64,000 nt of DNA, from positions 1 to 64,000 of the forward strand of contig CAIXDS010000022.1 of the NCBI GenBank assembly GCA_903918195.1, given 5' to 3'. The notes under the pieces were generated by a model, which was not told the origin of the DNA, ran no database searches, and worked only from the letters and a program-made list of their open reading frames with translations. The stretch is from an uncultured Acetobacteraceae bacterium. GTDB lineage: Bacteria > Pseudomonadota > Alphaproteobacteria > Acetobacterales > Acetobacteraceae. Position numbers and translations under genes: made by a program. Of this stretch, positions 1,208-61,939 are shown one piece after another; the stretch's first letter is position 1; every line of letters starts with the position of its first letter.

Positions 1208-2605
1208 TCACGGGAGGAGGTAGAGCAGGGTCAGCAGCGCGAACGGCAGCAGCAGCAGCGCGCACGACCATGCCAGGTAGCCGAAGAACCCCGGCATGCG
1301 CACGCCGCGATGGGCCGCGATGGCGCGCACCATCATGTTCGGCGCATTGCCGACATAGGTCAGCGCGCCGAAAAACACCGCCCCGGCCGACAATGCCCGC
1401 AGCACCGGCGACAGCTCCCCGGTCAGCGTTGCGGGGTCGCTGCCCGCGAGTTGGAAGAACACCAGATAGGTCGGCGCGTTGTCGAGCATGGCCGAGAGCA
1501 TGCCGGCCAGCCAGAAATAGGCGAGCGGCGACGGCCGCCCCGCCGCATCCGAGGTCAGCGCCAGCAGCGGCGCCAGCGGCCCGGCGGGACCGGCCGCCAG
1601 CATGGCCAGCACCGGCCCGATGGTGACGAAGATGGCGGCGAACAGCACGGCCACCTCCATCATCGGCGCCCAGGTAAACAGGTTACGCTGGCGCACCGCG
1701 TGCGGGGTGATCACCAGCGAGGCGGCGGTGATCCCGCCGAACACCAGCATGCCGAGCAGCCGCTCCAGGCCGATGGGCTGGCCGAGCAGCACCAATTCAC
1801 CGGGATGCCAGACGCCCTGGAGCAGCACGGTCGCGACCACCAGCAGCACCAGCGCGGCGTTGCGCCAGCCCCGCACGCGCAGCCGCCGCGCCGGCGGCGG
1901 CGGCGGGTCGCTGCGGGCCAGATGGAGGTCCAGCAGCCAGAAGGAGGCCAGCAGCGGCCCGGCGACGACCAGCAATGGGACGGTCAAATTCTGCAGTGGC
2001 CAGAAAAACGGCACACCCTGCAGGAACCCCAGATAGAGCGGCGGGTCACCGAGCGGGGTCGTGGCGCCGCCGACATTGGCCGCCAGCACGATGAAGAACA
2101 CCACCAGATGGACCTTGCGGGTGCGATGGGCATTGGCGCGCAGCAGCGGGTGGATCAGCACCATGGCCACACCCGTGGTACCCATCACGCCGGCCAGCAC
2201 GGTGCCGAGCGCCAGCAGGGCGGTGTTGCCGGCGGGGGTGCCCCAGGGCCCGCCCTCCAGCAGGATGCCGCCGCCGGCGGTGAACAGCGCCAGCAGCAGG
2301 CTGACGAAGGGGAGGTAGTCCAACAATATGGCGTGCCAGACGTCATGCCAAGCCACCGCCGGCCCGTGCAGCACGAGCAGCGGCAACAGCAAGGCCAGGC
2401 TCCAGGAAGCCGCGATCAGCCCCATGCGCCGATGCCACAGCCGCGGCGCCAGCATCGGCAAGAAGGCGATGGTGAGCAGCAGCCCGGCGAAGGGCAGCCC
2501 CCAGAGCGGCGCCGGCGCCGCCCCGATCGGCCCTTCCGCCGCGGCCCAGGCGGTGGCGGGCCAGAGTGTGGCGGCAGCGATCCCCAGGCCCCATATCATT
2601 GTCAT
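1208..2605 (-). CDS. NhaD/citrate-type sodium:proton antiporter family membrane protein
   Basis: A 465-residue integral inner-membrane protein with an N-terminal signal-anchor and about 12 hydrophobic segments. Stretches such as TTPLGDPPLYLGFLQG and AMLDNAPTYLVFF match the two inverted-repeat active-site regions of the ion transporter superfamily containing NhaD antiporters and citrate carriers (helix breaks with Asn/Asp-Pro). Sodium/proton exchange is the usual annotation for this subfamily; the substrate cannot be read from sequence. It sits immediately upstream of prpB, so carriage of an organic acid is a possible alternative. Confidence 0.75.
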   Translation of the reverse strand: MTMIWGLGIAAATLWPATAWAAAEGPIGAAPAPLWGLPFAGLLLTIAFLPMLAPRLWHRRMGLIAASWSLALLLPLLVLHGPAVAWHDVWHAILLDYLPFVSLLLALFTAGGGILLEGGPWGTPAGNTALLALGTVLAGVMGTTGVAMVLIHPLLRANAHRTRKVHLVVFFIVLAANVGGATTPLGDPPLYLGFLQGVPFFWPLQNLTVPLLVVAGPLLASFWLLDLHLARSDPPPPPARRLRVRGWRNAALVLLVVATVLLQGVWHPGELVLLGQPIGLERLLGMLVFGGITAASLVITPHAVRQRNLFTWAPMMEVAVLFAAIFVTIGPVLAMLAAGPAGPLAPLLALTSDAAGRPSPLAYFWLAGMLSAMLDNAPTYLVFFQLAGSDPATLTGELSPVLRALSAGAVFFGALTYVGNAPNMMVRAIAAHRGVRMPGFFGYLAWSCALLLLPFALLTLLYLLP

Positions 2606-2706
2606 TAGCCGGCAATATTCATCGGTTGGGGAGCCGAGGGGGTCGGTTGCATGCCCCTTCCCCTATATTTAACGTCGGTGGCACGCAACGGAGAACGGCC
2701 GGGACC

Positions 2707-3318
2707 ATGGAAATGTCTGGCGAGCGGCGCATCCAGGCGCCGCGGGATCGGGTCTGGCAGGCCCTGAACGACCCGCTGGTGCTGAAGGCCGCACTCCCCG
2801 GTTGCGAGAGCCTGGAAAAGCTGTCGGACACCGAGATGAAGACCATTGTCGCGATCAAGCTGGGGCCGATCGCGGCCCGCTTCACCGGAAAAGTGAACTT
2901 CACCGATATCGACCCGCCGAACGGCTATCGCATTGCCGGCGAGGGCCAGGGCGGCGTGGCCGGCTTCGCCAAGGGCGGCGCCGATGTGCGCCTGACCGGG
3001 GACGGCGACGCGACCGTGCTGACCTATGACGTGAAGGCGCAGGTCGGCGGCAGGATGGCGCAGCTCGGCGCCCGGCTGATCGACGCCACCGCCCGGCAGA
3101 CGGCGGACGCCTTCTTCACCCGGTTCGCCGACCTCGTGGCCCCGCCGGTTGCCGAAGCGGGGGAAGCAGCAGCGCCGGCCGTTGTGATCGCACCGGCCCC
3201 CAGCAAGCCCGGCCTGCGCGCCATCATCGGCGAGCCGTTCGCCACCCGGCTGGCCGGCGCGATCGCCGTGCTGCTCCTCCTGGTGATTCTGGCCGTGCTG
3301 CTCGGAGGCCGTTTCTAG
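2707..3318 (+). CDS. coxG: CoxG/SRPBCC family protein, membrane anchored
   Basis: 203 residues. Residues 1-150 form a SRPBCC (START-like) domain with the CoxG signature (MSGERRIQAPRDRVWQAL, then ALPGCESLE). A low-complexity Ala/Pro linker follows and then a C-terminal membrane helix. In carboxydotrophs CoxG helps recruit the MoxR/VWA maturation proteins to the membrane during assembly of molybdenum CO dehydrogenase-type enzymes. The ATG at 2707 was chosen because the domain begins there; the frame stays open further upstream but without family similarity. It overlaps coxD by one base (TAGTG) and heads a five-gene operon. Confidence 0.85.
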   Translation: MEMSGERRIQAPRDRVWQALNDPLVLKAALPGCESLEKLSDTEMKTIVAIKLGPIAARFTGKVNFTDIDPPNGYRIAGEGQGGVAGFAKGGADVRLTGDGDATVLTYDVKAQVGGRMAQLGARLIDATARQTADAFFTRFADLVAPPVAEAGEAAAPAVVIAPAPSKPGLRAIIGEPFATRLAGAIAVLLLLVILAVLLGGRF

Positions 3319-4223
3319 TGCTGCCGGCCAGCGTCGCCGATACGGCCTCCCTGCTGGCCGCCGGCGGCTATGTCGCCGACCTCGCCCTGGCCACCACCGT
3401 GCATCTGGCGCTGGCCATGCGCCGGCCGCTGTTCCTGGAAGGCGAGCCCGGCACCGGCAAGACCGAGATCGCCAAGGTGCTCGCCCTCGGCCTGAACCGC
3501 CGGCTGGTGCGGCTGCAATGCTATGACGGGCTCGACCTGTCCGCCGCCGCCTATGAATGGGACCATGCCCGCCAGCTCATGGCCATCCGCATCGCCGAGG
3601 CGACCGGCTCGGCCGACCGGCAGGCGCTGGCCAGCGACATCTACAGCCGCGCCTTCCTGCAGCCGCGTCCGCTGCTCTCGGCCATCGACCCCGACCTGCC
3701 GCCGGCGGTGCTGCTGATCGACGAGCTGGACCGCGCCGACGAGCCGTTCGAGGCGTTCCTGCTGGAGGTGCTGGCCGACTTCCAGTTGACCATCCCTGAA
3801 TACGGCACGGTGCACGCGGCCACGCCGCCGGTGGTGGTCATCACCTCCAACCGCACCCGCGAGGTGCACGACGCCATCCGGCGCCGCTGCCTCTACCATT
3901 GGGTGGATTACCCCGATGCGCGCCGCGAGCGGCTGATCCTGGCCCGCAAGGCGCCCGGCGTTCCGGCGCTGCTGTCGGCCCAGATCGTCGCCTTCGTGCA
4001 GAAGCTGCGCGGCGAGGATCTGTTCAAGCTGCCCGGCGTTGCCGAGACGATCGACTGGGCGGCAGCGCTGTCGCATCTCGACAAGCAGGAGCTTGACCCG
4101 GCGGCGGTGGATGAGACGCTGGGCGTGCTGCTGAAATACCAGGACGACATCGCCAGGGTGAAAGGCGCCGAAGCCGCCCGCCTGGTGACCGAGGCGCGCG
4201 ACGCCGCCGTGCCGCCGGGGTGA
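3318..4223 (+). CDS. coxD: MoxR-family AAA+ ATPase (CoxD-like)
   Basis: 301-residue AAA+ chaperone with Walker A GEPGTGKT at residues 42-49, Walker B LLIDELDRAD, and sensor-1 ITSNRTRE. MoxR/CoxD proteins work with a VWA partner to mature metalloenzymes; CoxD is needed to build the Cu-S-Mo centre in CO dehydrogenase of Oligotropha. The GTG start overlaps the coxG stop, and the end overlaps the CoxE-like gene by 4 bp (GTGA), so the proteins are probably made in fixed ratio. The substrate enzyme is not in this window. Confidence 0.88.
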   Translation: MLPASVADTASLLAAGGYVADLALATTVHLALAMRRPLFLEGEPGTGKTEIAKVLALGLNRRLVRLQCYDGLDLSAAAYEWDHARQLMAIRIAEATGSADRQALASDIYSRAFLQPRPLLSAIDPDLPPAVLLIDELDRADEPFEAFLLEVLADFQLTIPEYGTVHAATPPVVVITSNRTREVHDAIRRRCLYHWVDYPDARRERLILARKAPGVPALLSAQIVAFVQKLRGEDLFKLPGVAETIDWAAALSHLDKQELDPAAVDETLGVLLKYQDDIARVKGAEAARLVTEARDAAVPPG

Positions 4224-5440
4224 GCCCGGCCGCACCCGCCGTGCCGGCTTCGGGCGGCGCGTTTGCCGGCAACATTCTCACCTTTGCCCGTCTGTTGCGC
4301 CGCACCGGGCTGCCGGTGGGTCCGGCCGATGTGCTGGCCGCGCTGGCGGCGGTGCAGTTGGTGGACATCGGCAGCCGCGCGCAGGTGCGCACCGCGCTGC
4401 GCACCGCGCTGATCCATCGCCACGAGCACGCCGAGCTGTTCGATCAGGCGTTTTTCCTGTTCTGGCGCGATCCGCAGGCCGCGCGGGCGGTGGCCGCGTT
4501 CGGGCCGTTCGCGGCGGCGAAGCAAAAGCCGCCCGGGCGCGCGCCCCCGGGCAGCCGGCGTCTGGCCGAGGCACTCGCCCGCCCGAACGAGCAGAAACCG
4601 CGCGAGGAGAGCCGCCGGGAGATCGACGCGGCGATGACAATGTCCGACCGCGAACGGCTGCAAAGCATGGATTTCGAGGCGATGAGTGCCGCCGAGATCG
4701 CCGCCGCAAAGAACGAGATCAAGCGTCTTGCTTTGCCGCTCGACCGCCAGCGCACGCGCCGCCGCCGCGCCGACCCGTCCGGTGCGCAGGTGGATTTGCG
4801 GGCAACGTTGCAGGCCAGCCTGCGCCAGGGCGGCGAGATTCTCGACATCGCCACCAGCCGGCGGGTGATGCGTCCGCCGCCGCTGGTGGTGCTGTGCGAC
4901 ATCAGCGGCTCGATGGGCCGCTACGCGCAAATCCTGCTGCATTTCCTGCACGCCGTCGCGAACGATCGCGACCGCGTACACACCTTCCTGTTCGGCACAA
5001 GGCTGTCCAACGTCACCCGCGTGCTGCGCCACCGCGACGCCGAAATGGCGTTCCAGCTGGTTTCGCACGCCGTACCGGACTGGTCCGGCGGCACCCGCAT
5101 CGGCGAGGCGCTGGGCGCATTCAACCGGCGCTGGGCGCGGCGCGTGCTGGCGCAGGGGGCGGTGGTGCTGCTGGTCACCGACGGGCTCGACCGCGACGGC
5201 GCGGCCGGACTGGCGGAGGCGATGGACCGGCTGCACAAATCCTGTTCCCGGCTCGTCTGGCTGAACCCGCTGTTGCGCTGGGAGGGGTTCGCGCCAAAAT
5301 CACAGGGAATCCGCGCCATGCTGCCGCACGTGGACGAATTCCGTCCGGTTCACAATCTGATCAGCCTGCGCGCGCTGGTCAGCAGCCTCTCTCGCCCGGT
5401 GGTGCCGCGCGACATGGATCGTTGGAGGATGGCGTCATGA
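4220..5440 (+). CDS. coxE: VWA domain protein CoxE
   Basis: 406 residues. The C-terminal half is a von Willebrand factor A domain with the MIDAS motif DISGSMG (DxSxS) and a downstream DGLDRDG. The N-terminal half is the helical region typical of the CoxE/DUF58-like family. CoxE partners CoxD in cofactor maturation of molybdenum hydroxylases. Start is GTG within a GTGA overlap with coxD, and the end overlaps the next gene as ATGA. Function is inferred from family and gene order. Confidence 0.87.
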   Translation: MSPAAPAVPASGGAFAGNILTFARLLRRTGLPVGPADVLAALAAVQLVDIGSRAQVRTALRTALIHRHEHAELFDQAFFLFWRDPQAARAVAAFGPFAAAKQKPPGRAPPGSRRLAEALARPNEQKPREESRREIDAAMTMSDRERLQSMDFEAMSAAEIAAAKNEIKRLALPLDRQRTRRRRADPSGAQVDLRATLQASLRQGGEILDIATSRRVMRPPPLVVLCDISGSMGRYAQILLHFLHAVANDRDRVHTFLFGTRLSNVTRVLRHRDAEMAFQLVSHAVPDWSGGTRIGEALGAFNRRWARRVLAQGAVVLLVTDGLDRDGAAGLAEAMDRLHKSCSRLVWLNPLLRWEGFAPKSQGIRAMLPHVDEFRPVHNLISLRALVSSLSRPVVPRDMDRWRMAS

Positions 5441-5763
5441 GTTTGGGCGAAACCGAGGACGTTTTTGTCGCCGCCGCCGCCTGGTTGAAAGCCGGGGAGC
5501 AGGTAGCGCTGGCGACCGTGACGGAAACCTGGGGCAGTTCCCCCCGGCCCGCCGGCAGCCATCTGGCGGTCACGGCGAGCGGCAAGCTGGCCGGTTCGGT
5601 GTCCGGCGGTTGCATCGAGGGCGCGGTGGCCGAGGCAGCGCAGCGCAGCATCGCCGACGGTATCCCGCAAGTGCTGGAATTCGGCGTCACCAACGAGCGT
5701 GCCTGGGAGGTCGGGCTGGCCTGCGGCGGGCGGGTCAAACTGTTCGTGGAGAAACTGGCGTGA
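5437..5763 (+). CDS. XdhC/CoxI family protein, N-terminal domain only
   Basis: 108 residues matching the N-terminal domain of XdhC/CoxI proteins, with the conserved TETWGSSPRPAGS and SVSGGCIEG stretches. XdhC proteins bind molybdenum cofactor and carry it to, and sulfurate it for, xanthine dehydrogenase-type enzymes. Full-length XdhC also has a Rossmann domain; here that is encoded by the next gene, so the two domains are separate polypeptides. Start overlaps coxE (ATGA) and stop overlaps the next start (GTGA). This split is common in cox-type clusters and is not taken as a frameshift, since each part has its own start. Confidence 0.8.
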   Translation: MSLGETEDVFVAAAAWLKAGEQVALATVTETWGSSPRPAGSHLAVTASGKLAGSVSGGCIEGAVAEAAQRSIADGIPQVLEFGVTNERAWEVGLACGGRVKLFVEKLA

Positions 5764-6464
5764 CGCCCGAGGTCTTCGCCGCCCTGAGTGCGGCGCGCGC
5801 GGCGCAAATTCCGGTGGTACTGGCGACGAAGCTGCCCACCGGCGAGCAGTTTCTGCTTCCCGACCCCGCCGCCCCGGCGGCCCTGGCCGAGGCGGCGGGC
5901 ACCGCGCTGCGCGACGACCGCACCGGCACCGTAACGCTGACGGATGGGACGTTGGCGGATGGGGAATGGTTCCTGCGCGCCTACAACCCGCCCTTGCGGC
6001 TGGTGGTGGTGGGGGCGGTGCACATCGCCCAGGCGCTGGTGCCGATGGCGGCGCAGCTGGGGCTGGCGGTGGTGGTGGTCGATCCGCGCCGCGCCTTCGC
6101 GACCACGGAGCGGTTTCCCAACGTCAGCATCCGCACCGACTGGCCGGACGAGGCGATGGAGGCGCTGGCGCCGGATGCGCGCACGGCGGTGGTGACGCTG
6201 ACGCACGACCCCAAGCTGGACGACCCGGCGCTGGACCGGGCGCTGCGCAGCGAGGCGTTCTACATCGGCTCACTGGGCAGCCGGCGCACCCATGCCGCCC
6301 GCCTCACCCGCTTGCGCGCGCTCGGCCATGACGAGGCCGCGCTGGCGCGCATCCGCGGGCCGGTGGGGCTGGACATCGAGGCGGTGACCGCACCGGAGAT
6401 CGCGCTGTCTGTGCTGGCCGAACTGGTGGCGGTGCGGCGTGGATCGCCACTGGCGGCGAGGTAG
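5760..6464 (+). CDS. XdhC/CoxI family protein, Rossmann (C-terminal) domain
   Basis: 234 residues. The C-terminal two-thirds is the XdhC Rossmann domain: LVVVGAVHIAQAL (dinucleotide-binding-like turn), VVDPRRAFAT, then FYIGSLGSRRTHAAR and the closing GLDIEAVTAPEIALSVLAEL. It presumably acts with the preceding N-terminal half in molybdenum cofactor delivery. The GTG start in the GTGA overlap was chosen because family similarity begins there. It ends the cox-type operon and runs straight into a 12-bp-arm palindrome. Confidence 0.8.
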   Translation: MTPEVFAALSAARAAQIPVVLATKLPTGEQFLLPDPAAPAALAEAAGTALRDDRTGTVTLTDGTLADGEWFLRAYNPPLRLVVVGAVHIAQALVPMAAQLGLAVVVVDPRRAFATTERFPNVSIRTDWPDEAMEALAPDARTAVVTLTHDPKLDDPALDRALRSEAFYIGSLGSRRTHAARLTRLRALGHDEAALARIRGPVGLDIEAVTAPEIALSVLAELVAVRRGSPLAAR

Positions 6465-52566: not shown

Positions 52567-52780
52567 GCGGCGCACGCGCCGGCGGGTTGCAGTGCTGCGG
52601 CGATCGTCCGGTTAGGTCGCTGCCAGTTCCCGCGCAAAACCCACCCCCACCCGATCCTGACTGCTACGCTCCGGACCTGAAGCACGATCCACCCTGAATG
52701 CGCGGCAGGTTAGCGGGCAAGCTGTGGTTGGTGAAGCGTATTGTTGCCGAAGGGGATCATGCGCCTTCGCCGAAGACGAG

Positions 52781-55018
52781 ATGCCGCGCGCAGGACGCTT
52801 CCGGCAGCGCCGGGCGGACTGTATATCCTGGTGGTGTGAAACCGTTCCTGCCCTGTGCGCCGTTCCGGGCGCGATCGCCCTGAGCCCGGTCATCCTGACC
52901 GGCTTCGCCCTGGTCGTCGCCGCGCTGCTGGGCCTGGGTGCCGCGAGCGCGGTCGTGCACCACCATATTCCCGCCGGCGCCACGCGCCGGCGTGCCGCCG
53001 CTGCTGCCGCCCTCGCCTCGCGCCGCATCGCGGCACTCGGCAGCCTGGGAGTGTGCGGCCTGGGGTTCCTGCTGGTCCTGACCTACCTGCTGGCCGGTGC
53101 CGGCACGGCCACGATCACCCTCCCGCTCGGCCTGCCCGGCCTTGGCGTGCCGGGCCTTGGCGTAGCGGGCGGGAACCTGCTTGACGGCACCCGCTACGAC
53201 GGGGGGATCACGCTGGCGCTGGACGGGCTGTCCGGCTTCTTCCTGCTGCTGCTAATGGCGGCCGGGGCGGCTGCCTCCGCCGCCGCGCTGGATGGCCCCG
53301 GCGACACCGACGCCACCGCCCCGTTCCTTCCCGTCTTCCTCGCCGCCATGGCGCTGACCCTGCTGGCAGGCGATGCCTTTGCCCTCGTGCTCGGCTTCGA
53401 GCTGATGTCGCTGGCCTCCTTCGCGCTGATACTGACCCACCATGACGACGCCACGGTGCGCGCGGCGGCGCTGCTGTATATCGGCATGGCGGCGCTGGGG
53501 GCCGCGTGCCTGATCCCGGCGCTGGCGCTGCTGGCCGACGGCGCCGGCTGGGATCTGCGCTTCGCCGCCATCCGCGCCCTGCCGCCGGAGGGCTGGCGGG
53601 CCACCCTGGTGTTCGTGCTGGCGCTGGTGGGGGCCGGGTCCAAGGCCGGGCTGGCACCGCTGCATGTGTGGCTGCCGCCCGCCCATGCCGCCGCCCCCGC
53701 GCATGTCTCGGCCCTGATGTCGGGGGCCATGACCAAGGTCGCGCTGTACCTGCTGGTGCGCGTGTTGTTCGACCTGTGCGGGCCGGCGCAGCCGGTCTGG
53801 TGGGGGGTACCGCTGCTGGTGCTGGGCGCCGGCGGCGCCGTGCTGGGCGGGCTGCGCGCCAACCTGGAGAACGACATCAAGGCGCTGCTAGCCTGCTCGA
53901 CGGTGGAGAATATCGGCCTGATCGTCATCGGGCTCGGCGTGGCGCTGGCGGCCCGCGGCGCGGACCTGTCCACCCTGGCGGCGCTGGCGCTGGGCGGCGC
54001 CCTGCTGCATGCGCTGGCGCACGGATTGTTCAAATCGCTGCTGTTCATCGCCGCCGGCGCGGTGCAACACGGCGCCGGCACCCGGCTGCTGGTGCGGCTG
54101 GGCGGGCTGATCCATCGCATGCCGGTGACCACCGTCTGCGTGCTGGTCGGCGCGGCGTCGCTGGCCGGGCTGCCGCCCAGCGCCGGCTTCGCCGGTGAAT
54201 GGACGCTGTTCCAGGCCGTGCTGGGCGGGCCGCGCATTGGTAACCTGGGGCTGCAGATCCTGATCTGCGTGGTGGCCGCATTGATGGCGCTGGCGGCGGC
54301 GCTGGCCGCCGCCGCCGCGGTGCGGCTGGTGGGGGTGGCGTTCCTGGGCCGGCCGCGCTCGCCACGCGCCGCCGCCGCCGATGAGGCCGGGCCGCGGACG
54401 CGCGACGCGCTGACCGGCCTGGCGGTGGCGTTGGCGGTGGTGGGGCTGTTTCCCGGGGCCGTGTTGTCGCTGGCCGAACCCGTCCTGCGGCGGCTGGTAT
54501 CGGCCGGCTTGGACGACCGCGCCGGGCTGCTGGAGGTCGCGGCGCAGGCCGGCATGCCGGGCTATTCGGCCGCCGGCATCGCGCTGCTGGGGGCGCTCGC
54601 GGCGGGACTGGTGCTGTGGCTGGTGCGGACCCTCACCACGCCAGGCCATCGGGACGCGCCGGCCTGGGATGGCGGCTTCGGCGCGCCGCCGCCCTGGCTG
54701 CCCTTCGGCGATCCGCTGACCCAGTACGGGGGGGCGAGCTTCGCCCAGCCGCTGCGGCGCGCGCTCGGGGGAGCGCTGCTGCAGGCGGACGAAATCGTGG
54801 ACATGCCCGCGCCGGGCGAGACGCGGCCGGCGCGCATCACGGTAGAGCTGAGCGATCCGGCGGCGTGGTGGCTGTTCCGCCCGGTGGCGGAGCTGCGCGC
54901 GCGCCTGTCGGCGTTTGCCGATGCCATCCAGTTCCTGACCATCCGGCGCACCCTGTCGTTAATGTTCACGGTGCTGGTCTTGTTCCTCGCCGTGGTGGCG
55001 CTGATGGAGCAGCTCTGA
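52781..55018 (+). CDS. hyfB: Hydrogenase-4 component B-like (HyfB/NuoN-type) membrane subunit
   Basis: A proton-antiporter-like subunit with about 16 hydrophobic segments. Core motifs are LGFELMSLASFALI (conserved glutamate), GSKAGLAPLHVWLPPAHAAAPAHVSALMSGAMTKV (lysine helix), and LACSTVENIGLI. The start is unclear: the membrane region begins near 52890 with no ATG/GTG/TTG close by. ATG 52781 is provisional, giving an atypical Arg/Cys-rich leader; a CTG at 52880 is possible. First gene of a six-gene operon for a membrane-bound complex I/hydrogenase relative. Confidence 0.82.
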   Translation: MPRAGRFRQRRADCISWWCETVPALCAVPGAIALSPVILTGFALVVAALLGLGAASAVVHHHIPAGATRRRAAAAAALASRRIAALGSLGVCGLGFLLVLTYLLAGAGTATITLPLGLPGLGVPGLGVAGGNLLDGTRYDGGITLALDGLSGFFLLLLMAAGAAASAAALDGPGDTDATAPFLPVFLAAMALTLLAGDAFALVLGFELMSLASFALILTHHDDATVRAAALLYIGMAALGAACLIPALALLADGAGWDLRFAAIRALPPEGWRATLVFVLALVGAGSKAGLAPLHVWLPPAHAAAPAHVSALMSGAMTKVALYLLVRVLFDLCGPAQPVWWGVPLLVLGAGGAVLGGLRANLENDIKALLACSTVENIGLIVIGLGVALAARGADLSTLAALALGGALLHALAHGLFKSLLFIAAGAVQHGAGTRLLVRLGGLIHRMPVTTVCVLVGAASLAGLPPSAGFAGEWTLFQAVLGGPRIGNLGLQILICVVAALMALAAALAAAAAVRLVGVAFLGRPRSPRAAAADEAGPRTRDALTGLAVALAVVGLFPGAVLSLAEPVLRRLVSAGLDDRAGLLEVAAQAGMPGYSAAGIALLGALAAGLVLWLVRTLTTPGHRDAPAWDGGFGAPPPWLPFGDPLTQYGGASFAQPLRRALGGALLQADEIVDMPAPGETRPARITVELSDPAAWWLFRPVAELRARLSAFADAIQFLTIRRTLSLMFTVLVLFLAVVALMEQL

Positions 55019-55058
55019 TGCCGCGCCGCGGCCGCCGGCCGCGACCGGGAGAACGCGG

Positions 55059-56018
55059 GTGACCAGCTTGATCGGTCTGGCGACGCTGTTGCTCCATGTC
55101 GCGTTGATGCTGGCCCTGGCGCCGTTGCTGGTGGGCTTCATCCGCACGATCAAGGCGCGCGTGCTCGGGCGGGTTGGGCCGCCGGTGGTGCAGCCCTGGC
55201 GCGACCTGCTGCGGCTGGCGCGCAAGCAGCCGGTGGTCGCCGAGAACGCCTCCTGGCTGTTCCACGCCGCGCCCGCCGCGGGGTTCGCCGCCACCCTGGC
55301 CGCCGCCGCGCTGGTGCCCGGCTTCGCCCTCGGCATGACCACCGCGCCGCTCGCCGACCTGCTGGTGATCGCCGGCCTGCTGGCCCTGGCGCGCTGCTTG
55401 CTGGCGCTGGCCGGGCTCGATATCGGCACCGCGTTCGGCGGCATCGGCGCCTCCCGCGAAATGACCTTCGCCGCCTTCGCCGAGCCGGCGATGATGCTGG
55501 TGATCTTCACCCTCGGCCTGCTCATGGGCACCACCAACCTCGACGCCATCGCCCTGGTGCTGCGCGAGGTGACGGTGGGGCTGCGGGTGTCGCTCGGGCT
55601 CGCGCTGGTGGCGATCGTGGCGGTCGCCATCGCCGAGAACAGCCGCCTGCCGGTCGACAACCCGGCCAGCCACCTGGAACTGACCATGGTGCATGAGGCC
55701 ATGGTGCTGGAGTATTCCGGCCGCCATCTGGCGCTGATCGAGGCAACCGCGGCGCTGAAGCTGCTGCTGTGGATGACGCTGATCGCCACCATCTTCGCCC
55801 CGTTCGGCACGGCCACACCGGAGTCCGGCCCGCTGGTCTGGCTGTTCGCCCTGCCGCTCTGGGCGGTCAAGGTCGGCGCGCTGGCGGTGGTTCTGGCGCT
55901 GTTCGAATCGGCGATCGCCAAGATGCGGGTATTCCGCGTGCCGGAGTTCCTCGGCATCGCGGTGCTGCTCGGGCTGCTGGCGGCGGTATTCCTGTTCGTC
56001 AGCCAGGGGATTGCATGA
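55059..56018 (+). CDS. hyfC: Hydrogenase-4 component C-like (HyfC/NuoH-type) membrane subunit
   Basis: 319 residues, NuoH/HyfC family: ARVLGRVGPPVVQPWRDLLRLARK (quinone-site loop), GIGASREMTFAAFAEP, and AENSRLPVDNPASHLELTMVHEAMVLEYSG. It links the peripheral arm to the membrane arm. GTG start 40 bp after hyfB; overlaps the next gene as ATGA. Confidence 0.9.
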   Translation: MTSLIGLATLLLHVALMLALAPLLVGFIRTIKARVLGRVGPPVVQPWRDLLRLARKQPVVAENASWLFHAAPAAGFAATLAAAALVPGFALGMTTAPLADLLVIAGLLALARCLLALAGLDIGTAFGGIGASREMTFAAFAEPAMMLVIFTLGLLMGTTNLDAIALVLREVTVGLRVSLGLALVAIVAVAIAENSRLPVDNPASHLELTMVHEAMVLEYSGRHLALIEATAALKLLLWMTLIATIFAPFGTATPESGPLVWLFALPLWAVKVGALAVVLALFESAIAKMRVFRVPEFLGIAVLLGLLAAVFLFVSQGIA

Positions 56019-56701
56019 TGGGCGGCCTGCAACCCGGCTTCGGCGCGATCGGCTATGATCTGGCGCATCTGCTGGGTGGGGCGGTGCTGGTACTGTCCTT
56101 CGCGCTGCTCTACCAGCGCCGGCTGACCGCGGTCATCAACATCTACGCCATGCAATCCTGGGTGCTGGCGGCGGCGGCGGCCTGGCAGGGCTGGGTGCAG
56201 TCCTCGGCGGAGCTGTATGTCGCGGCCCTGATCGCCCTCGGCGTCAAGGGCCTGGCGATCCCGCTCGCGCTGCACCGGATCGTGCGGCGGCTGCATATCC
56301 ACCGGGCGGTGGAAACGGCGCTGGGCATCTTCCCCAGCATGGCGGTGGGGGTGGCACTGGTGGCGCTGGCGATCATGGTGGTGCTGCCGACCACGATGCA
56401 AACGCAGGTGCTCACCCGCGAGGACCTCTCGCTCGCCCTGTCCGTGGTGCTGCTCGGCCACCTGATGATGATCACCCGGCGCACCGCGCTGACCCAGGTG
56501 ATCGGCTTCATGTCGATCGAGAACGGGCTGATCCTGGGCGCGGTCGGCGTGCAGGGCATGCCGCTGGTGGTGGAGCTGTCGGTTGCCGTTCTGGTGATGG
56601 TGGGCGCGGTGGTGTTCGGCGTGTTCTTCTTCCGCATCCGCGAGAACTTCCAGAGCCTGGACGACAGCCATCTCGACCAGGTCGGCGGGGCGCACCGGTG
56701 A
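56015..56701 (+). CDS. hyfE: Hydrogenase-4 component E-like (HyfE) membrane subunit
   Basis: 228 residues, mostly hydrophobic. The NuoK-like core reads IGFMSIENGLILGAVGVQGMPLVVELSVAVLV with its glutamates, plus LYQRRLTAVINIYAMQSWVLA at the N-terminus. Start ATG overlaps the hyfC stop; end overlaps hyfF as GTGA. Confidence 0.88.
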   Translation: MMGGLQPGFGAIGYDLAHLLGGAVLVLSFALLYQRRLTAVINIYAMQSWVLAAAAAWQGWVQSSAELYVAALIALGVKGLAIPLALHRIVRRLHIHRAVETALGIFPSMAVGVALVALAIMVVLPTTMQTQVLTREDLSLALSVVLLGHLMMITRRTALTQVIGFMSIENGLILGAVGVQGMPLVVELSVAVLVMVGAVVFGVFFFRIRENFQSLDDSHLDQVGGAHR

Positions 56702-58176
56702 ACGAGCTTCGCATCATCATCGGCATGCTGCGCGAGTTGTTCTCGCTGCCCGGGCTGGTGGTGGTGGTGCCGCTCGCGACCGCCGCCTGGCTGAGCTTCG
56801 TCACCGATGCGCGCCGCGGCGCCTGGATCAACGCCGGCGCCGCGACCCTCGCCTTCCTGCTCGCCTGCGCGCTGCCGTGGGAGCCGACCACGGGCACGCT
56901 GCTGCTGGTCGAGCCGCTCGCCGCGCACATGGCCATCCTGACCTCGTTCATCGGCATGAGCACGGCCTGGTTCAGCCGCGACTACATCGCCGTCGAGGCG
57001 ACAGAGGGCCGTCTCGATCCGATGCGCCTGCGCGATTACCATGCGCTGTTTCAGACCTATCTGGGCTTCATGCTGCTGGCCCTGCTGTCCAACAACGTGC
57101 CGGGAACCTGGGGCTCGATCGAGGCGGCCACCATCGCCTCCGTTCTTGTCGTCGGCCTGCCGCGCACCGCCGCCGCCGTCGAGGCATCGTGGAAGCAGTT
57201 GCTCATTTGCGGCGTCGGCATTTCGATGGCGTTCTTCGGCACCACGCTGCTCTATTTGGCCGCCGTGCCGGTGCTGGGCTCCGGCCTGCCGGCGATGAGC
57301 TGGAGCCAGTTGCCCGCCGCCGCCCCCGCCTTCCCCGCCGCCATGCTGAACCTCGCCTTCGTGTTCATGCTGCTCGGCTACGGCACCAAGGCGGGGCTGG
57401 TGCCGCTGCACGCCTGGATGCCGGACGCGCATGCCGAGGGGCCGACACCGGTTTCGGCGGTGCTGTCGGGGTCCATCCTCAACGTCGCGCTGTTCGTTAT
57501 TCTGCGGCTGCGCGGGCTGCTGGACGCCAACCCCGACGCCATCGCGCCCGGACCGCCGATCATGGCGCTGGGACTTGCGAGCGTGCTGCTGGCCTCGTTC
57601 AGCCTGTGGCCGCGGCGCGACGTGAAGCGGTTCTTCGCGTTCTCGACCATCGAGCAATCGGGCGTGGCGGCCTTCGCCTTCGGGCTGGGGGGGGCGGCGG
57701 CGACCTTCGCGGGATTGCTGCACCTGACCCTGCACACGCTGACCAAGGCGGCGGTCTTCCAATGCGTCGGCCGCGCCGTGCAGCTCAAGGGCGGGCAGAA
57801 CTTCACCGATATCGGCGGGCTGCTGGTGCGCCATCGGGCGCTCGGGCTGACGCTGGCCGCCGGCATCGTGGCGGTGGCGGGGCTGCCGCCGTTCGGCCTG
57901 TTCGCCAGCGAGTTCCTGGTGCTGCTGGCGACGGTGCGCGAGCTGCCCTGGCTGGTGGCGCCGCTGGCGCTGGGGCTGGTGGTGGGGGGCTGGGCGCTGG
58001 CGATGCGGCTGATTTCGCTCTGCCTCGGCCCACCGACGCCCGATCGCGGCGCGGCGCCGGGATGGATCGCCCTGGTGCCGGCCTGGGTGCATCTGGCGGT
58101 CGTGCTGGTGCTGGGCCTGGCCATGCCGGGCCGGGTCGCCGCCTGGTTCGCCGCCATCGCCGAGGCGGCGCCATGA
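56698..58176 (+). CDS. hyfF: Hydrogenase-4 component F-like (HyfF/NuoL-type) membrane subunit
   Basis: 492 residues, about 14 helices. Antiporter-like motifs are LGYGTKAGLVPLHAWMPDAHAEGPTPVSAVLSG and FAFSTIEQSGVAAFAFGLGG, with LHLTLHTLTKAAVFQCVG. GTG start in a GTGA overlap; its stop overlaps hyfG (ATGA). Likely one of two ion-pumping modules of the complex, with HyfB. Confidence 0.9.
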   Translation: MNELRIIIGMLRELFSLPGLVVVVPLATAAWLSFVTDARRGAWINAGAATLAFLLACALPWEPTTGTLLLVEPLAAHMAILTSFIGMSTAWFSRDYIAVEATEGRLDPMRLRDYHALFQTYLGFMLLALLSNNVPGTWGSIEAATIASVLVVGLPRTAAAVEASWKQLLICGVGISMAFFGTTLLYLAAVPVLGSGLPAMSWSQLPAAAPAFPAAMLNLAFVFMLLGYGTKAGLVPLHAWMPDAHAEGPTPVSAVLSGSILNVALFVILRLRGLLDANPDAIAPGPPIMALGLASVLLASFSLWPRRDVKRFFAFSTIEQSGVAAFAFGLGGAAATFAGLLHLTLHTLTKAAVFQCVGRAVQLKGGQNFTDIGGLLVRHRALGLTLAAGIVAVAGLPPFGLFASEFLVLLATVRELPWLVAPLALGLVVGGWALAMRLISLCLGPPTPDRGAAPGWIALVPAWVHLAVVLVLGLAMPGRVAAWFAAIAEAAP

Positions 58177-59681
58177 GCACCGCCGGCACCATCATCCGTA
58201 CCGCCCCCACCGAGTCGTGCCAGCCCTGGCCGCGCCATAAGCTGCTGGGCGAAGAATGGCGGGCCATGGCGGCATCGCTCGGCGAGGCGGGGGCGCCGTC
58301 GCTGCTGGCGCTGTGGGCCGACACGGCGCGGGTTTATGTGCTGCTGCACGATGCCGATGCGGCCGGCTGGCTGGTCGCCTCGACCAGCGTGGATGACGGG
58401 CGCTATCCGGCGCTGTCACCGCGGCGCCCGTCGGCGACCTGGTTCGAGCGCATGATCCACGATCTATGGGGCCACGAGGCGTCCGGCGGACGCGACCTGC
58501 GGCCCTGGCTGGAGCACGGGCGCTGGCCGGTGACGGTGCCGATGTCGTTGCGGCCGCTGGCACGGGAGTCGCCGGCCGAGCCGCCGGAGTTCCTGCCGGT
58601 GGAGGGGGAAGACTACCACCAGATACCGGTCGGACCGGTGCATGCCGGCATCATCGAGCCCGGGCATTTCCGTTTCTCCGCCCTGGGCGAGACGGTGGCG
58701 CGGCTGGAGATCCGGCTGGGCTGGCTGCACAAGGGCACGCTCGCCCTGATGCGCGGCAAGTCGCCGCGGGTGGCGGCGCGCTTCGCCGCCCGGCTGTCGG
58801 GCGACACCACGGTCGCCCATTCGGTGGCCTTCGCCCGTGCCGCCGAGGCGGCCAGCGGCACCGAAGTGCCGCCGCGGGCGGCGGCGCTGCGGGCGGTGAT
58901 GACCGAGCTGGAGCGGGTGGCCAACCACCTGAGCGATTGCGGAGCGATCGCCGGTGACGCCGCGTTCGCCTATCTCCCGGCGCGGTTCGGCTGGCACCGC
59001 GAGGCTCTGCTGCGCGCCGCCGCGGTCGCGTTCGGCCACCGGCTGATGATGGACGTGGTGGTCCCGGGCGGGGTGACCGCCGACATCGTGCCGGGCGGGA
59101 CGGAGGCGATCCTGCGCGCGCTGGCGCCGCTGGAGGACGAACTGCCCGAACTCATCCGCGTCTATGACGGGTTTTCCTCCCTGCTGGACCGGACCGTGGG
59201 CACCGGGATCGTGACGCCGGCGCTGGCCGGCGAATTCGCCGCCGGTGGCTTCGTGGGGCGGGCCTCCGGGCGGGCAATCGATCTGCGGCGCACGCCAGGC
59301 TACCCGCCCTATGACCGGCTGGCCTTCGAGGTGCCGGTGCAGCAGGAGGGCGATGTCGATGCGCGCGTGCGCATTCGCTTTGCCGAAATCGGCGCGAGCC
59401 TGAACCTGCTGCGGACGCTGCTGATCGAGTTGCCGGAGGGCGGGGTGTCGGTGCCGCTGCTGCTGGGCTCGGGCGAGGGCATCGGCTGGGCGGAGGGGTT
59501 CCGCGGCGATATCTGGCACTGGCTGCGGCTGGACGGCGGGCAGATCGCCGCGGTGTTCATGCGCGACCCGAGCTGGCTGCAATGGCCGCTGCTGGAGGCC
59601 GCCATCCACGACAACATCGTCGCCGACTTCCCGCTGTGCAACAAATCGTTCAACTGCTCCTATTCCGGGGTGGATTTGTAA
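58173..59681 (+). CDS. hyfG: HyfG-like large subunit lacking [NiFe] ligands (Ehr type)
   Basis: 502 residues: an N-terminal NuoC-like part (1-125) fused to a NuoD/HycE-like domain. HycE has CxxC pairs near AHSVA and at the C-terminus to hold nickel-iron. Here the first region is LSGDTTVAHSVAF (209-220) with no cysteine, and the C-terminus reads FPLCNKSFNCSYSGVDL, without the DPCxxC form or the cleavage site motif. The quinone/metal helix ELERVANHLSDCGAIAG is kept. A working hydrogenase is therefore unlikely; it fits the energy-converting-hydrogenase-related (Ehr) class of unknown electron donor. Confidence 0.85.
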   Translation: MSTAGTIIRTAPTESCQPWPRHKLLGEEWRAMAASLGEAGAPSLLALWADTARVYVLLHDADAAGWLVASTSVDDGRYPALSPRRPSATWFERMIHDLWGHEASGGRDLRPWLEHGRWPVTVPMSLRPLARESPAEPPEFLPVEGEDYHQIPVGPVHAGIIEPGHFRFSALGETVARLEIRLGWLHKGTLALMRGKSPRVAARFAARLSGDTTVAHSVAFARAAEAASGTEVPPRAAALRAVMTELERVANHLSDCGAIAGDAAFAYLPARFGWHREALLRAAAVAFGHRLMMDVVVPGGVTADIVPGGTEAILRALAPLEDELPELIRVYDGFSSLLDRTVGTGIVTPALAGEFAAGGFVGRASGRAIDLRRTPGYPPYDRLAFEVPVQQEGDVDARVRIRFAEIGASLNLLRTLLIELPEGGVSVPLLLGSGEGIGWAEGFRGDIWHWLRLDGGQIAAVFMRDPSWLQWPLLEAAIHDNIVADFPLCNKSFNCSYSGVDL

Positions 59682-60202
59682 TGGTCTGGCGGCGTGTGCT
59701 GGCCACCCTGCGGCACGGCCCGGCAACCCTGCCGGCGGCGCGGCTGGACGACGCGGCAACCCGCCGGATGGCCGACCGGCTGGAGGCGGCTGCACAGCGC
59801 ACGCTGGGGCGGAGTCTCGCCATCCGGCAGGTGGACGCCGGCAGTTGCAATGGCTGCGAGCTTGAGCTCCACATGCTGAACTCGATCGTCTACGACCTGG
59901 AACGGTTCGGCCTGCGCTTTGTCGCCAGCCCGCGCCATGCCGACGTGCTGCTGGTAACCGGCCCGCTGACCCACAACATGCGCGAGGCGCTGCTGCGCAC
60001 CTGGATCGCCATGCCCGATCCGAAATGGCTGGTGGCGGTGGGCGATTGCGCCAGTGACGGCGGCGTGTTCAAGGGCAGCTACGCCATCGCCGGCGGGGTG
60101 GACGCGGCGCTGCCGGTGGACCTGCTGATCCGCGGCTGCCCGCCGGCACCGGCACAGCTGCTGAACGGGCTGCGGACGCTGCTAGAGGCGAATGCGGACT
60201 GA
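59681..60202 (+). CDS. hyfI: HyfI/NuoB-like iron-sulfur subunit
   Basis: 173 residues with the four cysteines for the N2-type [4Fe-4S] cluster: AGSCNGCELELHML, GDCASDGGVF, and IRGCPPAPAQLL. Start overlaps the hyfG stop (TAATG). It would pass electrons at the junction of the peripheral and membrane arms. A broken copy of residues ~62-107 lies at 61826-61939. No HyfA/HyfH ferredoxin, formate dehydrogenase or hyp maturation gene follows. Confidence 0.9.
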   Translation: MVWRRVLATLRHGPATLPAARLDDAATRRMADRLEAAAQRTLGRSLAIRQVDAGSCNGCELELHMLNSIVYDLERFGLRFVASPRHADVLLVTGPLTHNMREALLRTWIAMPDPKWLVAVGDCASDGGVFKGSYAIAGGVDAALPVDLLIRGCPPAPAQLLNGLRTLLEANAD

Positions 60203-61807: not shown

Positions 61808-61825
61808 AGTGATTTTGTAAATTAG

Positions 61826-61939
61826 ATCCACAGGCTGCATTCGATCGTTTATTACCTCGAACGGTTTGGCCTGCGCTTCGTCGCCAGCTCCCGCCATGCC
61901 GACGTGCTGCTGGTGACTGGCCCGCTGACCCACACCTGA
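61826..61939 (+). pseudogene. Internal fragment of the hyfI-like gene
   Basis: Reads LHSIVYYLERFGLRFVASSRH, then ADVLLVTGPLTHT and stop. This matches residues about 62-107 of the HyfI-like protein (LNSIVYDLERFGLRFVAS) with a handful of changes at DNA level. It has neither start nor the cysteine motifs. Remains of a duplication that spans the glycosyltransferase gene. Confidence 0.85.

Follow-up and report, generated by a model that had tools for sequence, protein, structure and literature searches.

What does a hydrogenase-4-like membrane complex do when its large subunit has none of the cysteines that would hold nickel and iron? A six-gene operon, hyfB-C-E-F-G-I, raises this question in the window, the 64,000-nucleotide stretch of contig CAIXDS010000022.1 from an uncultured Acetobacteraceae bacterium (GCA_903918195.1) that was analyzed here. 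The coupled genes occupy 52781-60202 of the + strand with intact reading frames; four of the five gene joins overlap by 1-4 bases, and a gap of 40 bases separates HyfB from HyfC. We hold with good confidence that they encode a six-subunit membrane complex of the type called Hyq or Ehr (energy-converting-hydrogenase-related), a minimal complex-I-like machine that would act as a pump and not as a [NiFe] hydrogenase. The founding Ehr paper is said to be that of Marreiros et al. in 2013. The subunits, and the two segments of HyfG on which the argument turns, are as follows.

52781..55018, + strand: HyfB/HyqB, antiporter-like membrane subunit of 745 residues (Pfam Proton_antipo_M, 3.6e-49; NCBIfam hydrogenase 4 subunit B, 545.8 bits, under the cut-off of 667)
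55059..56018, + strand: HyfC/HyqC, NuoH/HycD-like membrane subunit (Pfam NADHdh, 1.2e-34)
56015..56701, + strand: HyfE/HyqE, small membrane subunit (NCBIfam hydrogenase 4 membrane subunit, 1.4e-21, 77.4 bits, under the cut-off of 136)
56698..58176, + strand: HyfF/HyqF, second antiporter-like membrane subunit (NCBIfam hydrogenase 4 subunit F, 533.9 bits, cut-off 533)
58173..59681, + strand: HyfG/HyqG, large subunit of 502 residues without [NiFe] ligands (Pfam Complex1_49kDa, 8.3e-33; NiFeSe_Hases, 4.5e-8; Complex1_30kDa, 2.6e-5)
58797..58823, + strand: N-terminal site of HyfG, S209-S217 (SGDTTVAHS), aligned with CGICGFAHS of HycE; D211 in 119/119 and S209 in 116/119 aligned rows
59625..59678, + strand: C-terminal site of HyfG, D485-L502 (DFPLCNKSFNCSYSGVDL), aligned with DAPLIIGSLDPCYSCTDR of HycE; D485, S492, G499 and D501 in 119/119 and N494 in 118/119 rows
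59681..60202, + strand: HyfI/HyqI, NuoB-like small subunit of 173 residues with an N2-type [4Fe-4S] site (Pfam Oxidored_q6, 1.7e-30)

HyfG is a fusion of 30-kDa-like and 49-kDa-like domains. Pfam gave no match to HyfE at E ≤ 0.001, and among the NCBIfam hydrogenase-4 models HyfF alone clears its cut-off, narrowly. A GTG at 52724 is a possible alternative start of HyfB.

Loss of the [NiFe] ligands

Alignment of HyfG with E. coli HycE places S209, T212, S496 and G499 on the four ligand cysteines. A preliminary description of the locus had stated that the large subunit has no CxxC pair at either [NiFe] position, and alignment with HycE and NuoCD, extended to the family, did not restore one. The family alignment has 119 rows (the window, a paralogue on contig C92 of the same genome and 117 other loci), 102 of them closer and 17 more distant; its counts exclude two very diverged loci (L165, L166), a true HycE (L167) and the E. 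coli loci L168 and L169, and any species overlap between the two locus sources stays in them. A first cysteine survey had covered the best 80 of at least 580 loci, weighted to close kin. No row keeps a cysteine pair at either site (0/119): 116 have no cysteine at any of the four positions, and three have a single one. As a control, HycE-type matches keep both CxxC pairs in 10 of 10 cases.

The pocket that has lost its ligands is otherwise strongly conserved. Besides the residues listed above, E162 and R207 are each found in 118 of 119 rows, and two polar segments stand out, R207-x-S-G-D-S/T-T and D485-F-P-x-x-N-x-S-F-N-x-S-Y-S-G-x-D-L. We read this as probable selection for chemistry or binding other than that of Ni-Fe. 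In the columns taken from E. coli NuoCD, which we take to hold the quinone ligands of complex I, histidine is absent at 161 and tyrosine at 210 (0/119 each); the window has I161 and G210. The nearest solved relative of HyfG is HycE (7z0s_E), both by sequence (3e-50) and by fold (4.4e-31, template modeling score 0.84 over the query, from an AlphaFold2 model). The model was built on a 41-row alignment with a mean predicted local distance difference test score (pLDDT) of 85.6; because pLDDT falls below 50 at residues 152-166, 173-187 and the last four, the geometry of the pocket cannot be read from it.

Maturation genes offer a second line of evidence. We surveyed 398 genomes of the window's phylum, counting HypD and nifH as present when over the model cut-off and leaving the Fisher tests uncorrected for relatedness. 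A family match of at least 450 bits defines an operon genome (62/398) and one above 600 bits the closest type (21 genomes); two genomes with partial matches (G144, G345; 250.8 and 220.6 bits) and three diverged ones (G039, G295, G363) were kept out of the 62. HypD occurs in 94 of the 398. All ten genomes with a HycE-type subunit have it, and 39 of the 62 operon genomes lack it, the other 23 having it (Fisher p = 0.00017 for HycE-type versus operon genomes). Twelve of the 21 closest-type genomes are without HypD; the listed completeness is at least 96 % in all twelve, and three are single contigs (G139, G217, G287). Since operon genomes at this completeness do without HypD, the family does not require a [NiFe] cofactor. 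The absence of maturation genes, also part of the preliminary description, holds locally and fails genome-wide: HypD lies on contig C114 of the window's own genome, where nickel-hydrogenase large-subunit matches are found on C114, C160 and C20, the C20 protein having both CxxC pairs.

Could another metal have taken the place of nickel? C489 and C495, together with C256, had been put forward as such a site. HyfG has four cysteines in all (C16, C256, C489, C495); in the HycE alignment C495 stands one residue ahead of a ligand position, and C489 and C256 lie off the ligand positions. The requisite conservation is missing from the family as a whole: C256 is present in 10, C489 in 91 and C495 in 96 of the 119 rows, with C489 and C495 together in 86 and both gone in 18, counts that rule out this site as a family-wide feature. 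A new metal or redox catalytic center made of C489, C495 and C256 (or C260) therefore strikes us as improbable. It draws support from the closer subgroup, where 85 of 102 rows have C489 and C495 and 79 of 102 add a cysteine at 256 or 260, and from the 2012 Hyq paper, which singles out three cysteines as completely conserved among the HyqG proteins compared there (PMC3357923). Judged by the alignment, that conservation fails in the 119-row sample. Among the 17 distant members only one has both C489 and C495, so that 16 lack at least one, and seven read I...L instead, as in INKSFNLSYSG. Column 260, four residues past C256, has cysteine in 93 of 119 rows and in HycE, and alanine in the window; it is the likely place of the third Hyq cysteine, Cys-258 of Azorhizobium caulinodans, as inferred via C259 of Rhizobium johnstonii. 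D485, S492, G499 and D501, moreover, are invariant with or without neighboring cysteines. As the cysteines are not family-wide, the focus moves to the conserved Asp/Ser/Asn/Gly pocket.

The N2 cluster and the membrane arm

The small subunit retains the four N2-cluster cysteines, as had been noted at the outset: C56, C59, C123 and C153 of HyfI, the first three conserved in 113 of 113 rows and the last in 112 of 112. The membrane subunits keep their charged residues to a similar degree. E207, K288, K367, H414, K418 and E473 of HyfB are each found in 89-91 of 91 rows; in HyfF, E142 and H238 occur in 113/113, H342 in 112/113 and K231 in 111/113; and D100, E142, E207 and E283 of HyfC are each present in all 99 rows. 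With both the N2 ligands and these residues conserved, the complex gives the impression of a machine that links redox chemistry to the movement of ions, a link suggested by homology.

Three small genomes of the window's family (G039, G295, G363; loci L165, L166) have a very diverged large subunit. One such locus (L166, 8464-15301) keeps the six-gene order and the four N2 cysteines, and its four membrane subunits have no Pfam match; channel-type residues are retained at 3 of 12 positions in HyfB, 2 of 11 in HyfF and 6 of 20 in HyfC, in alignments of about 20 % identity. It has perhaps kept a redox function and lost the pump.

Genomic setting, partners and regulation

The order B-C-E-F-G-I is found in 88 of the 88 loci with clear matches to all six subunits, from a total of 118 family loci besides the window; the other 30 miss at least one clear subunit match, and many of these are short contigs. 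Two of 91 loci (L160, 2193-6174; L161, 2090-6012) have two tandem HyfB-type genes ahead of HyfC, which brings the genes to seven and the antiporter-like subunits to three.

The genome of the window has a second complete operon on contig C92 (L010/L172), whose HyfG and HyfI are 54 % and 65 % identical to those of the window. In a quick tree with supports from the Shimodaira-Hasegawa-like approximate likelihood-ratio test (SH-aLRT), the window HyfG belongs to a clade of 20 rows (SH-aLRT 100), Acetobacteraceae being among its named members, and the C92 HyfG to one of 21 rows (SH-aLRT 99) that also holds rhizobial HyqG, that of R. johnstonii 3841 (formerly R. leguminosarum) among them. Identity to two rhizobial HyqG is 51-52 % for the window and 61-63 % for the C92 copy. 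Downstream of the working operon the window holds a piece of a further hyfI.

61824..61934, + strand: broken hyfI fragment (L175, 3825-3935), codons 63-98, direct, 87 % identity over 111 bp

A second hyfI piece lies at 67349-67412 of contig C22 (L175, 9350-9413; codons 116-137, inverted, 95 % over 65 bp). The two pieces suggest a past duplication or rearrangement around the operon.

Neither a HyfA/HyfH-like ferredoxin subunit nor a formate dehydrogenase was found among the neighboring open reading frames (ORFs) scanned, which bears out the preliminary description on this point. Nor did the flanking proteins, 115 upstream and 127 downstream, show a recurrent redox partner, single cases being possible; these Pfam scans covered 242 of the 290 ORFs selected, within 4.2 kb and from no more than 51 loci. 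In the 25 most frequent families listed, the commonest were helix-turn-helix (HTH)/cupin regulators upstream (7/115) and ABC/AAA ATPases downstream (4/127). The nearest genes in the window encode an alcohol dehydrogenase (S-(hydroxymethyl)glutathione dehydrogenase model), a PAP2 protein and a tetratricopeptide-repeat glycosyltransferase. An alcohol-dehydrogenase-like cluster flanks 11 of 116 loci, the window included, at scattered positions and orientations, and was set aside as a common paralogue-rich family. The largest upstream clusters are transporter genes (found at as many as 27 of 116 loci, with Roseomonas-like relatives making up most of the listed ones), which read as tripartite ATP-independent periplasmic (TRAP) type.

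A hexapeptide gene (L157, 15806-16360), which reads as gamma-carbonic-anhydrase-like, and a SulP permease gene (L137, 15799-17526) each stand directly upstream of a relative's operon, as single cases. In Acidithiobacillus caldus, one hyf cluster is reported beside a beta-carbonic anhydrase (PMC3826726). A role in CO2/bicarbonate metabolism was dropped because, among 1083 flank ORFs, blastp gave no other matches to the L157 and L137 proteins and a rough beta-carbonic-anhydrase motif gave none. About 46 kb from the hyf operon, the window has consecutive CoxG, AAA ATPase, CoxE and XdhC-like genes (2566-6461), which are accessory to a molybdenum enzyme of the aerobic CO-dehydrogenase type; Pfam was run on 49 of the 55 ORFs called in the rest of the window.

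The Hyq system of A. caulinodans is described as a seven-gene operon, hyqRBCEFGI, under the control of NifA, and its deletion as slowing diazotrophic growth (PMC2650096). The window leaves no space for hyqR between the PAP2 gene and HyfB, and no NifA/sigma-54 motif was found in the 700 bases 5' of the window HyfB or the 900 bases 5' of the second copy. A scan of 88 loci, 87 from the family plus the HycE locus L167, gave no strict sigma-54 motif. In R. johnstonii, one TGT-N10-ACA lies 281 bases ahead of an HTH gene and no sigma-54 motif was found. NifA/sigma-54 control was rejected as a family trait on the strength of the loci scanned.

The operon has a weak link to nitrogen fixation: nifH is present in 11 of 62 operon genomes and 27 of 336 others (Fisher p = 0.03), and in 6 of the 21 closest-type genomes (p = 0.009). 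In one further operon genome (G291) nifH appears as two pieces below the cut-off. The operon was described in 2010 as generally missing from non-diazotrophs (PMC2930871), a statement at odds with the 51 of 62 operon genomes in which nifH over the cut-off is missing. The window's own genome has nifH over the cut-off on contigs C212 and C385; contig C195 adds two nifH-like genes with weaker matches, which read as bchL/bchX; the source organism is perhaps a phototrophic diazotroph.

Function and its alternatives

Among known systems, the operon most closely recalls Hyq of A. caulinodans and the orthologues that its authors name, such as that of Rhizobium leguminosarum bv. viciae: the six subunits, their order, the missing CxxC pairs and the N2 cysteines are common to both. 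The R. johnstonii 3841 operon lies on pRL11, and its HyqG has SGDSTVAY and LCNKSFNCSYSGHDL. The window copy differs in its separate clade and in its lack of hyqR and of the NifA/sigma-54 motif, in a comparison made with rhizobial HyqG, not with that of A. caulinodans. The likeness to Ehr, here compared by description, lies in the group-4-like large subunit without [NiFe] ligands and in the Mrp antiporter-like subunits (PMC10284858, PMC6349859); the preliminary description had recognized this pattern, and both of its elements were found. Published Ehr complexes, however, are placed near group 4f, or are proposed to have a formate dehydrogenase with NuoE/NuoF-like subunits for a partner, and no partner of that kind is seen here. 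Their function is given as unknown both in hot-spring comammox Nitrospira (PMC10284858) and in Margulisbacteria and relatives, where a formate dehydrogenase is the partner proposed (PMC6349859). The large subunit of hyfBCEFGI of Acidithiobacillus ferrooxidans has been called a non-hydrogenase in a HydDB-based re-analysis (PMC7735108). In the limited listings of the literature searched, we found no publication that joins Hyq with Ehr. E. coli hydrogenases 3 and 4 (HycE, HyfG; formate hydrogenlyase) share the gene names and, through HycE, the closest solved fold and sequence. In contrast to them, the window has no CxxC pairs, no counterpart of the HycE C-terminal extension and no adjoining ferredoxin-like subunits or formate dehydrogenase. 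Respiratory complex I (NuoCD, NuoB, NuoH, NuoL/M) has a homologous core and the N2 cluster in common with the operon, which differs from it in having no NADH module and in the replacement of the quinone-site histidine and tyrosine.

The window copy is most likely an ion-pumping oxidoreductase with no substrate assigned, and a member of a large family rather than a stray degenerate hydrogenase. Redox chemistry in the HyfG/HyfI pocket, relayed by no metal center other than N2, would power the passage of ions through HyfC-E-F-B or be powered by it. The complex includes neither a flavin nor a ferredoxin subunit, and for that reason we propose that a soluble low-potential carrier docks on HyfG/HyfI, with a quinone or other small molecule as the second partner and the direction reversible; this is the least certain step, and a tentative one.

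Several observations weigh against this interpretation. The quinone columns give a quinone role no support in sequence, and conserved residues are no proof of pumping. The operon is mildly associated with HypD (23/62 versus 71/336, p = 0.009), which argues against full independence and still leaves the 39 operon genomes without HypD standing. Elsewhere redox enzymes have been reported to accompany related operons: a formate dehydrogenase precedes the core-genome hyf of A. caldus by a few genes (PMC3826726), formate dehydrogenase genes co-occur with hyfBCEFGI in Nitrospira, and the hyf of Ca. N. nitrosa adjoins a CO dehydrogenase (PMC5596200). Published genetics weighs against it as well. In A. 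caulinodans nodules H2 leaks only from the hup hyq double mutant (PMC2930871); in culture, both uptake and evolution of H2 are reported to depend on Hyq, hyq deletion raises H2 evolution about 15-fold at 20 uM O2, the same deletion lowers the microaerobic H2 evolution of a hupSL mutant from 61,000 to 14,000 units, and high microaerobic evolution persists in a nifK hupSL mutant (PMC3357923). If direct, these phenotypes mean that the complex handles H2.

Hyq may then be a working hydrogenase, as published: a reversible H2:quinone oxidoreductase that activates H2 at a non-[NiFe] site in HyfG. Beyond the deletion phenotypes in cultures and nodules, the Hyq papers report that H2 recycling survives loss of the whole 20-gene hup/hyp operon, and that it is complete in Rhodocista centenaria, which has hyq and no hup/hyp, although the authors do not present those data. 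The strong conservation of the HyfG pocket segments and the presence of the operon in genomes without HypD fit as well. No known H2-activating metal site is present, however, and the former active-site segments have no family-wide cysteine; the Hyq authors themselves remark on the absence of both CxxC motifs from HyqG, and regard a Ni,Fe site as unlikely and any HyqG catalytic site as speculative (PMC3357923). The parts of the published Hyq account that we consulted contain no assay of purified protein. On this balance we judge a working hydrogenase to be unlikely. H2 turnover without nickel, Hyp maturation or family-wide cysteines would amount to a fourth way of activating H2, or to chemistry at or near the lone N2 cluster, coupled to a pump; we regard that, too, as unlikely.

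An ordinary [NiFe] group-4 hydrogenase of the formate hydrogenlyase type, its ligands misread, is scarcely credible. The names of the annotation models (hydrogenase 4), a 32.9-bit match to the nickel hydrogenase family and one relative's record as 'nickel-dependent hydrogenase large subunit' speak for it. They are outweighed by the S, T, S and G that the HycE alignment puts on the four ligands, by the 39 operon genomes that have no HypD and by the absence of HycB/HycF-like and FdhF genes among the neighboring ORFs scanned; at the level of sequence this explanation is already refuted. Functionless decay of the operon is likewise very improbable and already disfavored. The three small genomes with very diverged large subunits, and the loss of most channel-type residues at L166, point that way, against which stand the residues invariant across 119 members, the gene order kept in all complete loci, the deletion phenotypes of A. 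caulinodans (PMC2650096, PMC3357923) and the intact frames of the window copy.

For relatives, the absence of the ligands had essentially been reported in 2012. New here are the cysteine test on a larger sample, the HypD survey controlled by HycE-type genomes, the conservation of the pocket, the lack of a recurrent partner and the link between Hyq and Ehr. Two strands of literature, one on Ehr, of unknown function, and one on Hyq, treated as an H2:quinone oxidoreductase, deal with this kind of complex and were not seen to meet in the searches made; the complete proton-pump chassis that they describe is carried by 62 of 398 genomes of the window's phylum without an agreed substrate. The main interest lies in the conflict between the H2 phenotypes and the sequences. 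A Hyq that acts on H2 would have to manage without [NiFe]; a Hyq that does not would leave the H2 recycling published for nitrogen-fixing symbionts to be explained in another way.

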